Part shown: piece after piece, positions 20,027-23,885 of the stretch
Layout: every line of letters begins with the position of its first letter
Numbering within the stretch: position 1 is the stretch's first letter
NCBI GenBank assembly: GCA_944392845.1
Contig: CALXYE010000012.1
Location: 1 to 34,763, forward strand
From: an uncultured Alphaproteobacteria bacterium
Lineage (GTDB): Bacteria > Pseudomonadota > Alphaproteobacteria > CAAGCB01 > CAG-977
Direction: 5' to 3'
Length of the DNA stretch: 34,763 nucleotides
Position numbers and translations under genes: made by a program
The notes under the pieces: model-generated
What the model was told of the DNA's origin: nothing
What the model saw: the letters and a program-made list of their open reading frames with translations, nothing else
Databases searched by the model: none

Positions 20027-20527
20027 TCAGCCGGCAAGCTGCAGAATGCCGCACAATTTCGTCGTCGCATCCTGCGTATTCGTTTTTTCCAAAGCCGCCA
20101 GCTCGTTCGCCAAACGATCCAGAGCCTGCTCGTAGATCTGGCGTTCGCTGTACGACTGGTCGGATTGAGATTGGGAGCGGTACAGGTCGCGAACGACCTC
20201 GGCGATCGAAATCGGATCGCCCGAATTGATTTTTGCTTCGTATTCCTGAGCGCGGCGGCTCCACATCGTGCGCTTAACCTTGGATTTGCTTTTCAGAGTT
20301 TCCAGCGCCGTGTCCATAACGCTTCGGTTCGACAGTTTGCGCAGTCCCGAATTTTTCGCCTTGACCATGGGAACGCGCAGGGTCATGCGGTCTTTGTCAA
20401 AATGAACGGCGATCAGTTCCAATTCCTGCCCGGCGACCGTGTCCTTCGTTATGCTTAAAACTTTGCCGACGCCGTGCGCCGGGTAAACAACGAAATCACC
20501 GGCGGAAAAAGAAGTTTCTTTCGACAT
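20027..20527 (-). CDS. carD: CarD/CdnL-family transcription regulator
   Basis: A 166-residue protein that binds the RNA polymerase beta subunit and stabilises open promoter complexes, notably at rRNA promoters. The N-terminal RNAP-interaction domain begins FSAGDFVVYPAHGVGKV, with the conserved LRVPMVKAKNSGLRKL. The C-terminal helical DNA-binding part includes TMWSRRAQEYEAKINSGD and LYRSQSQSDQSYSERQIYEQ. Length and order match alphaproteobacterial CdnL. The upstream leader is unusual: a TATAAT is followed by a terminator-like hairpin 95-130 nt before the ATG. Confidence 0.93.
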   Translation of the reverse strand: MSKETSFSAGDFVVYPAHGVGKVLSITKDTVAGQELELIAVHFDKDRMTLRVPMVKAKNSGLRKLSNRSVMDTALETLKSKSKVKRTMWSRRAQEYEAKINSGDPISIAEVVRDLYRSQSQSDQSYSERQIYEQALDRLANELAALEKTNTQDATTKLCGILQLAG

Positions 20528-20888: not shown

Positions 20889-23213
20889 TCAGACGGACAG
20901 GGCTTCGCGCACCGAAGCGAATTTTTCGTCGGGACGGGCGGCCAATATGCGCGCTTCTTCCCTGACGGAACCTTCCAACCCGCGGCGCAAAAGCGTCAAC
21001 ACCATGTTTTCGATTTCCAGCACCAGCCGGCGGGTCAGGTTTCCTTCCTCTTCGGCGGAAATTTTTCCGCTCTTGGCTTCAACCAGCGCAAACAGGCTTT
21101 CCGTATCGTACGCCATTGCCGTCACCAGATACGCCTTTGCGACTTCGGCGACCGAAGCCGAACATTCCTGACGCATCTTGCCGACGAAATTGACGCTGAC
21201 GCGGTTAACCATATTATTGGCCAAAACGGTGGATGCGATCTCGCGACGCAACGGATGTTTCAATGCGTCGTCGCGCCATCCTTCCCGCAAAGCCTTCGGG
21301 AAATAGGACAAAAGCACGCCTTCGGCCATAACGGGATCGTCGGGCAAATCGCTGTTCAGGATATGGTCGTACAGCGCCATTTTTGCATACGCCATCAACA
21401 CGCACAATTCGGGACGGGTCAGCCCCAAACCGCGGTCAAAGCGGGCGTCCATTTCGGCGTCCGTCGGCAAAAATTCCAAAGCGCGATCCAAACGCCCCGA
21501 CTTTTCCAAACGAGCCATCAGTTTTTTGTTTCCGGGTATGCTTTTCGCGCCGCGGTGCGACATATAAGAAATAATCCTGTTTTGCTGGTAATTGTCTTTC
21601 AGCACCAGTTCCGCCACATCGTCCGTCATTGACTTCAAAAGCGCGTTGCGCGCTTCAAAACTCAGGCGGCCTTCCGCCATCGCCGCATTCAGCATGATCT
21701 TGATGTTGACTTCGTGGTCGGAGCAATCGACGCCGCCCGAATTGTCAACGGCATCCGTGTTCAAACGGCCGCCGTTCAGAGCGTATTCGATGCGCGCGCG
21801 CTGAGTCAGCCCCAGATTTGCCCCTTCGGCCACCGCTTTGGCGCGCAATTCGTTCGCGTCAATGCGACAGGAGGCGTTCGCGGCATCCTTGGCTTCGGGC
21901 TGAGTTTCCGACGAAGACTTGACGTACGTCCCGATACCGCCGAAATACAACAGGTCAACGGGCGCCTTCAAAATCGTTTTGACCAGTTCGTCGGGCGTCA
22001 TGACCTTTTTGCTCGTCCCCAAAGCCTTGCAGGCTTCGTCAGACAAAGAAACGCTTTTTTCCCTGCGGTCGTAAACGGCGCCGCCCGCCGACAGTAGCGA
22101 ACGGTCGTAGGCGTTCCAGCCCGCTTCTTCCTTAAACAGGCGTTCGCGCTCCTTAAACGAAACCTCCGTATCGGGATTCGGATCGATGAAAATGTTGGAA
22201 TGGTTGACCGCGGCAATCAGCTTGATACGACGCGATAACAGCATCGCGTTGCCGTACACGTCGCCCGCCATGCTGCCGACGCCGACGCAGGTAAAGTCTT
22301 CGGACTGACAGTCGCGCCCCATCTCGGCGAAATGGCGTTTGACGCTTTCCCAAGATCCTTTCGCGGTAATCGCCATGCCTTTATGATTATAGCCGGCGGA
22401 ACCGCCCGAAGCAAAAGCGTCGCCCAGCCAGAAACCGTATTCGGCCGACAGGGCGTTCGCATAATCGGAAAATTCCGCCGTCCCCTTATCCGCGGCGACG
22501 ACCAAATACGGATCCTCGCCGTCATAACAAACGACGCGATCGGGACGGACAACCTGTCCGCCGACGATATTGTCCGTAATGTCCAGCATGCCGCGAATCA
22601 ACGTTTTATAACATTCGACCGCATTCGCGACGATTGCCGCCTTATCCCCGTCTTCGGGCGGACGTTTGGGGAAAAATCCCCCCTTCGACCCGACGGGCAC
22701 GATGACGACGTTTTTTACCTGCTGAGCTTTGACAAGGCTCAGGATTTCGGTGCGGAAATCGTCCTTTCGGTCCGACCAGCGGATACCGCCGCGCGCAATT
22801 TTTCCGAAACGCAGGTGAACCGCGTCAACCGCATCGGAATAAACAAAAATTTCCGCCATGGGAACGGGTTTCGGCAAACCGGGGATGCGGCCGCTGATGA
22901 ATTTGAAAGAAACGTAGTCCTTGCCGTTTTGGAAAAAGTTCGTCCGCACCATCGCTTTCAAAGCGGAAAAAACGGCTTTCAACGAAGGATTCTTCGGCAT
23001 TTTTTCCGAAATCTCCGCCTCGGCTCTTTCAAGAGCTTCTTTCGGCGCCGTATTGTCGGGATCAAACTTCGAAACGAAATAAGCCAGCAATTTTTCCGTC
23101 AGTTCGGGGTGGTCGCGATAGGCTTCCGTAACGGCGCCCTTCGTCGCGATCGAGGTTTGACGGATATAGGATGCAAACGCATTCAGCAAAAACTCTTTTT
23201 GTGAAGGATTCAT
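20889..23213 (-). CDS. Short-form large-type NAD-glutamate dehydrogenase (catalytic core only)
   Basis: The enzyme interconverts glutamate and 2-oxoglutarate plus ammonia. From the ATG at 23213 (GAGGA 7 nt upstream) it has 774 residues, whereas bacterial GDH-180 enzymes have about 1600. It begins at the helical segment just before the catalytic domain (FLLNAFASYIRQTSI) and lacks the roughly 600-700-residue ACT-containing N-terminal region. The C-terminus, after GLTRPELCVLMAYAKMALYD and MVNRVSVNFVGK, also seems shortened. Core motifs remain: ARGGIRWSDRKDDFRTEIL (about 140-158), VPVGSKGGF, DAFASGGSAGYNHKG, the nucleotide loop VGVGSMAGDVYGNAM, FGGIGTYVK and AVAEGANLGLTQ. The loop has Ser where GDH-180 usually has Asp (GDMSGD). 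No missing N-terminal half is encoded upstream, where a divergent gene starts at 23358. Confidence 0.9.
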   Translation of the reverse strand: MNPSQKEFLLNAFASYIRQTSIATKGAVTEAYRDHPELTEKLLAYFVSKFDPDNTAPKEALERAEAEISEKMPKNPSLKAVFSALKAMVRTNFFQNGKDYVSFKFISGRIPGLPKPVPMAEIFVYSDAVDAVHLRFGKIARGGIRWSDRKDDFRTEILSLVKAQQVKNVVIVPVGSKGGFFPKRPPEDGDKAAIVANAVECYKTLIRGMLDITDNIVGGQVVRPDRVVCYDGEDPYLVVAADKGTAEFSDYANALSAEYGFWLGDAFASGGSAGYNHKGMAITAKGSWESVKRHFAEMGRDCQSEDFTCVGVGSMAGDVYGNAMLLSRRIKLIAAVNHSNIFIDPNPDTEVSFKERERLFKEEAGWNAYDRSLLSAGGAVYDRREKSVSLSDEACKALGTSKKVMTPDELVKTILKAPVDLLYFGGIGTYVKSSSETQPEAKDAANASCRIDANELRAKAVAEGANLGLTQRARIEYALNGGRLNTDAVDNSGGVDCSDHEVNIKIMLNAAMAEGRLSFEARNALLKSMTDDVAELVLKDNYQQNRIISYMSHRGAKSIPGNKKLMARLEKSGRLDRALEFLPTDAEMDARFDRGLGLTRPELCVLMAYAKMALYDHILNSDLPDDPVMAEGVLLSYFPKALREGWRDDALKHPLRREIASTVLANNMVNRVSVNFVGKMRQECSASVAEVAKAYLVTAMAYDTESLFALVEAKSGKISAEEEGNLTRRLVLEIENMVLTLLRRGLEGSVREEARILAARPDEKFASVREALSV

Positions 23214-23357
23214 GAGCGTTTCCTCTAAAATTGAAATCACTTGGACAATATACTTACGCGAAGCCGACGACAAGCATTTTTACCGCTTTGCCGTTTTATG
23301 CTTTTCTTCGGCCGAAAGAAAGGTTAAAAAGAAATTAAAAAACGATCAAGGAATCGA

Positions 23358-23885
23358 ATGAAAACACCCTCCGCGTATGAAAAGGCGGCTTCGTGTTCCC
23401 TCAACGCGTTGCGCTGGATCTTTTTTTTCGCAAACGTCGCCCTGTTGCTCGGCCTGGGGTTCAGGACGGCGCAGGCGTGGATTTCCGCTCCGTCGGACTT
23501 CCGCGAAATAATGCGCCTTTATCCGTCGGAACCCGAATTCGCCGACATAAAAAGCGCCGAACACCAGATGAAGGGAGCCTTGATCTTCGTAACGGCCGTA
23601 TATGTTATCGGCGCCTTCTTTTGTTATGAACTTTTCATTAAAACAAAAAGCCTGTTAACAAACCTGACGGCGCCCCTGTTCATCGGCTTTCTGCTTCTGA
23701 TGGGAGAAAGTGCGAATTTCTTCCTGCCCGCGTTGGATAAGGCAAGAGCCCTCAGAACATGCGAAAAAGCGGGCATTGCATGGGATAAAAAAGCGCATTT
23801 TTGCGACGTGATGCAGCTGGAACGCAAGCGGTTGGCGGAAATAAAGGCGCAAAAGAAAAAAGCGGCGCGCCGAAAAAGAAGATAA
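23358..23885 (+). CDS. Small three-helix membrane protein of unknown function
   Basis: I do not recognise the family. The 175 residues contain three hydrophobic helices (about 19-40, 73-93 and 104-124). An acidic loop lies between the first two. After the last helix a segment carries two cysteines, C134 and C149, spaced so they could pair if outside the cytoplasm. The end is a strongly basic Lys/Arg tail (from about 156), more typical of a cytoplasmic C-terminus. AAGGA lies 6 nt before the ATG. It is followed, 73 bp downstream and in the same direction, by mscS, so the two may share a transcript. It is divergent from the dehydrogenase gene. Confidence 0.7.
   Translation: MKTPSAYEKAASCSLNALRWIFFFANVALLLGLGFRTAQAWISAPSDFREIMRLYPSEPEFADIKSAEHQMKGALIFVTAVYVIGAFFCYELFIKTKSLLTNLTAPLFIGFLLLMGESANFFLPALDKARALRTCEKAGIAWDKKAHFCDVMQLERKRLAEIKAQKKKAARRKRR

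Follow-up and report, generated by a model that had tools for sequence, protein, structure and literature searches.

Large glutamate dehydrogenases (L-GDHs) have been described in two size classes, with subunits of 115 and 180 kDa (PMC8175468, PMC12364357); the length of their C-terminal domain is conserved, and the role of their long terminal extensions is largely unknown (PMC8175468). In the 180-kDa enzyme of M. smegmatis (mL-GDH180; PDB entries 7jsr, 7a1d and 9hux-9hv6), the C-terminal domain covers residues 1221-1594, the subunits of the D2 tetramer touch one another through ACT*2, ACT*3 and the C-terminal domain but not through the catalytic domains, and the ACT and PAS domains are the proposed sensors (PMC8175468). 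The L-GDH115 class (fungal type), for which Nocardia farcinica A0A0H5NTF9 is cited (PMC8175468), likewise consists of large GDHs, with a shorter N-terminal extension. The hexameric S-GDH50 enzymes (PF02812/PF00208, about 50 kDa) carry out the same class of reaction, and a 2025 paper places all known NADP-dependent or dual GDHs in this 50-kDa group (PMC12364357). Within the window (the whole stretch of DNA analysed, 34,763 nucleotides) we identified a gene for a large GDH of about 85 kDa (Table 1), which, to judge by the sequence features tested, is a size variant of this family that falls into neither the 115- nor the 180-kDa class; our search of the open-access literature turned up no large GDH smaller than 115 kDa.

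Table 1. Positions of the short GDH gene and its parts in the window, and short large GDHs of other lineages.
Feature	Position	Strand	Basis or remark
Core-only large glutamate dehydrogenase, 774 aa, 85.1 kDa	20889..23213	-	ATG start, TGA stop
AGAGGA, Shine-Dalgarno-like, 7 nt 5' of the ATG	23221..23226	-	
Helical motif HM3, aa 9-52, first element kept	23058..23189	-	Pfam
Catalytic domain PF05088, aa 75-550	21564..22991	-	Pfam, 767 bits; PDB sequence match
GSMAGD dinucleotide loop, aa 313-318	22260..22277	-	
Proximal C-terminal domain, retained, aa 551-744; GDH_C positions 1-149 of 339	20982..21563	-	
Clade-specific C-terminal tail, aa 745-774	20892..20981	-	Predicted helices
Short large GDHs of other lineages, 733-773 aa	L143-L145, L186-L193 (G142, G243, G257, G393-G398)		

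Domain architecture

The initial annotation had described this gene as the catalytic core of the large NAD-GDH class, beginning with its own ATG and Shine-Dalgarno sequence, lacking 600-700 N-terminal residues and part of the C-terminus, and reading GSMAGD in the nucleotide loop; the analysis bears out all of these points. The open reading frame comprises 774 codons plus a stop, and its match to Bac_GDH_CD (PF05088; 767 bits against a curated cut-off of 22.8) places the protein in the large GDH family. The Pfam match to HM3 is weak (24.2 bits, just below the 24.6-bit cut-off); the AF2 model has helices in this region at aa 3-19, 25-34, and 36-50. By phmmer, aa 6-713 align with residues 648-1378 of the M. 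smegmatis enzyme (7a1d), the sole PDB sequence match, so that the protein ends about halfway through the C-terminal domain as delimited in that enzyme, and the GDH_C match (aa 595-744) covers only the first part of the model. When aligned with full-length relatives, the protein lacks 641-697 N-terminal residues, the three ACT-like domains and the PAS domain among them, and about 165 C-terminal residues. Apart from a (D/N)(E/D/N)KF motif, the C-terminal tail shows low conservation. A search of NCBIfam with the 774-aa protein returned no family.

The protein shares the catalytic domain, HM3 and the proximal C-terminal domain with mL-GDH180, and these shared domains align end to end at about 45% identity; it differs in lacking ACT*1-3, PAS, HM1-2, and the distal C-terminal domain (85 versus 180 kDa). 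Thus, of the L-GDH180 N-terminal segment (three ACT-like domains, PAS and HM1-3) only HM3 is present, the remainder being found nowhere in the genome, and the distal part of the complete C-terminal domain (about 374 residues) is absent. Compared, by description only, with the L-GDH115 class (subunit of about 115 kDa with a complete C-terminal domain), the window protein is some 30 kDa smaller, and its C-terminal domain is roughly halved. Sequence similarity to S-GDH50 is very low: PF00208 gives a weak, partial match (26 bits, aa 445-517) and PF02812 is unmatched, whereas the window protein has HM3 and an L-type C-terminal domain.

Modelling and structural comparison with GDH-180, as the initial annotation had proposed, gave an AF2 model with a mean pLDDT of 91 and a pTM of 0.88 (alignment of 44 sequences). 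Foldseek matched this model to the mL-GDH180 entries with query-normalised TM-scores of 0.91-0.93 (0.93 to 7a1d), and to small GDHs with 0.32-0.36 (also query-normalised); the fold of the matching region of the 180-kDa enzyme is therefore predicted to persist.

Conservation across the order

All 12 genomes examined of the order, which comprises rumen and gut Alphaproteobacteria, contain the same short form (one family, three genera; the named matching records come from rumen and other metagenomes). These genomes are metagenome assemblies, 88-99% complete, the window's own being 94.6% complete in 177 contigs. A single PF05088 gene is present in each, its open frame spanning 767-845 codons and its protein 762-775 aa, and its ATG falls at an equivalent position directly ahead of HM3: every member has a methionine there, 3-6 residues ahead of a conserved (E/D)F(L/V)L, an upstream stop lies 1-70 codons before the ATG, and most other members of the clade have purine-rich stretches at similar upstream positions. 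Full-length or frameshifted homologs in near relatives, one of the two refuting results named in the initial annotation, were looked for and none was found. Among the matches listed, the alpha-, gamma-, and betaproteobacterial and actinobacterial relatives are nearly all about 1,550-1,700 aa long, a range that leaves out genes cut by contig ends, short forms and partly eroded forms. Purifying selection acts on the gene: by NG86, dN/dS is 0.05-0.20 in eight pairs, most of them close to saturation in dS. In the GDH trees, the enzymes of the order form one branch within those of the Alphaproteobacteria. In this order the short GDH is a stable trait maintained by selection, in line with the streamlined core that had been proposed for it.

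Short and eroded forms in other lineages

We surveyed 385 alphaproteobacterial genomes, listing the best matches and re-querying 80 lower-scoring genomes singly, and among the matches listed short forms were also present in at least G142, G243 and G257. In family f132, which belongs to another order (that of G142), such forms, of 733-773 aa, occur in all eight genomes, from four genera (G142, G243, G393-G398); that of G257 has 773 aa. The short forms of f132 and G257, found in genomes of 0.6-1.7 Mb, start similarly before HM3 and are similarly cut at the C-terminus, but they are about 38-39% identical to the window protein and mostly have GDM in the loop. In the short genes that were inspected, the flanks contained no trace of an N-terminal or distal C-terminal part. 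Three further genes are partly reduced: G325 (L148), of a sister family to f132, encodes 1,356 aa, in which the N-terminal region is partial and the distal C-terminal part is present; G376 (L146) encodes 1,105 aa, with an eroded N-terminus and the distal C-terminal domain present; and G189 (L149) has a reverse-strand ORF of 1,388 aa, whose N-terminus is intact and whose C-terminal domain ends at about the same point as that of the window protein. G376 and G325 are possible intermediates.

Conserved and altered residues

Five residues (R141, K167, K177, D242, and S498), which we take, from their roles in small GDHs, to be the putative catalytic, glutamate- and dinucleotide-binding residues, do not vary within the clade or among 98 full-length relatives. 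Arg11 (in HM3) and Arg79, present in 97 and 95 of the 98 full-length forms, respectively, are replaced in every one of the 12 clade members, as in most f132 short forms, and are kept in three relatives with a partial or full N-terminal part; these two positions fit contact with the lost N-terminal part and are candidates for it. We also considered parallel residue changes across the short forms more broadly. With two f132 sequences, these had a p of about 1e-5; with all eight, the overlap was 5 of 15 (p 0.03), and N-terminally eroded forms gave p 0.006 and 0.02. Since the f132 overlap is no stronger than that of the eroded forms, only Arg11 and Arg79 were retained.

A reduced enzyme and its probable properties

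The reading that we consider probable is that of a functional, reduced large GDH, descended from an alphaproteobacterial 180-kDa enzyme, which carries out the ordinary NAD(H) reaction and has lost allostery and the D2 tetramer. By the time the sampled genera of the order separated, trimming of the ancestor would have left HM3, the two-lobed catalytic domain and the C-terminal domain's proximal half. The reaction would most likely be the usual reversible one, in which glutamate is converted to 2-oxoglutarate and ammonium with NAD(H) as cofactor. Because ACT*2 and ACT*3 are absent, the tetramer interface that they form cannot be made, and with the ACT-like, PAS and distal C-terminal domains removed we infer that altered assembly and loss of amino-acid or nucleotide allostery are likely. 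The enzyme would then work as a monomer, a dimer or another assembly, with substrate levels setting its rate, and the retained proximal C-terminal domain may keep a dimer contact. An unregulated enzyme, as the initial annotation had suggested, is plausible, as none of the presumed metabolite-sensing domains is left; regulation could also come from the new tail at the C-terminus or from a partner that has escaped recognition.

Alternative explanations

That the cut coincides with a domain boundary would suit a split enzyme, in which an N-terminal sensor half encoded by another gene assembles with the core, and the initial annotation had named a search for such a gene as a check. We searched the 12 genomes of the order in six frames, reading through stops, with a profile of the N-terminal part built from 13 full-length enzymes, which found no match in any of them and matched all eight controls; a second profile, covering the distal C-terminal part, likewise found none in these 12 genomes and matched five of the eight controls. 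Since neither profile matches anything in the 12 genomes, the GDH is neither split nor broken, and we regard a split enzyme as very improbable. Even less credit goes to gene decay, to a break introduced in sequencing or assembly, or to a start called in the wrong place: the genomes are fragmented metagenome assemblies, but start and end are placed identically in all 12, stops precede the ATG closely, the neighbours are conserved, dN/dS is low, and no trace of the missing parts was seen.

The properties of the dinucleotide site bear on another alternative, namely that the cofactor has shifted to NADP(H) or to dual use. The loop reads GSMAGD in 10 of the 12 clade members and GDMSGD in the other two, and it is GDMSGD, GDMAGD or GDMGGD in the full-length relatives; position 314, within the glycine loop, holds Asp in every one of the 98 full-length enzymes but Ser in 10 of the 12 clade members. 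His338 is lost in 11 of the 12 clade members, and both losses near the dinucleotide site favour a shift. Against it, GDMSGD is kept by two members, and residue 337, at the end of beta-2, which we take to be the position usually discriminating NAD from NADP, is Asn or Ser in the clade but already Asn in 38 of the 98 full-length enzymes (Asp in the other 60). The Ala in place of Ser is also common among full-length enzymes (GDMAGD), and so the loop alone is no argument for a cofactor change; the changed preference that had been suggested from GSMAGD is not supported. With NADP or dual use known only in the 50-kDa group (PMC12364357), we consider a shift improbable. A better, though still rather unlikely, alternative concerns history: a single truncation, with or without gene transfer, could underlie the short forms of both the order and f132. 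The GDH trees leave a joint short-form clade unrejected (AU p 0.181 in the best-sampled set; 0.915, 0.557, and 0.473 in the other sets), although in the best-sampled tree each short group is one clade (100/100) and the two are apart. The RpoB tree, however, rejects the window's order and the other short-form lineages as a group (AU p 0.004 and 0.008) and places f132 with G325 (91/97), the sister-family member in the same order that still has N-terminal and distal C-terminal parts. A second, separate reduction in f132 is thus favoured by these comparisons, but not proven.

Returning to the reduced and functional large GDH, we tentatively suggest, as a broader reading that is possible but less likely than not to hold in full, that it represents a further size class, with a subunit of about 85 kDa, at which at least two alphaproteobacterial orders arrived independently: a minimal, non-allosteric and non-tetrameric enzyme that would be the main entry of ammonium into glutamate where glutamate synthase is lacking. 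If this is so, the same domains were lost at nearly the same boundaries in both orders. A natural enzyme without terminal extensions, kept by selection, is a ready-made test of what the extensions do: an active enzyme showing neither allostery nor a D2 tetramer would mark the extensions as modules for regulation and assembly, and one that is tetrameric or still regulated would require current models to change. As a minimal catalytic unit of the family, the short GDH would be convenient for structural and kinetic work.

Nitrogen metabolism and gene neighbourhood

We found no 50-kDa GDH in the 12 genomes of the order, and besides the GDH gene itself, PF00208 gave only weak partial matches, to ORFs of about 410-430 aa; the core-only enzyme therefore appears to be the only GDH of these genomes. 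Glutamine synthetase is present in all 12 and glutamate synthase in eight, and glutamate synthase was not found in the remaining four (the window's genome, G003, G004, and G005); as these are metagenome assemblies, absence in the four is weaker evidence than presence in the eight. With a sole GDH detected and four genomes in which no glutamate synthase was found, the enzyme may also run toward ammonium assimilation, and an assimilatory role is possible in some members.

The gene order RadA-CvpA-methyltransferase-(MscS)-orf175-GDH-CarD is kept in most of eight relatives, with MscS in part of them. An ORF of 175 aa (23358-23885, forward strand), divergent to the GDH gene, adjoins it in all eight; the product looks like a membrane protein by eye and has no Pfam family. 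Directly downstream of the GDH gene there is a CarD-type regulator (20027-20527, reverse strand), in the same place in all eight relatives. Deletion of the CarD homologue CdnL in Caulobacter is predicted to render the GDH gene gdhZ essential (PMC6994171). In one full-length relative, the distal C-terminal profile match (G016:C2:22540-23019) spans one TGA, which may be an ordinary stop or a recoded codon.
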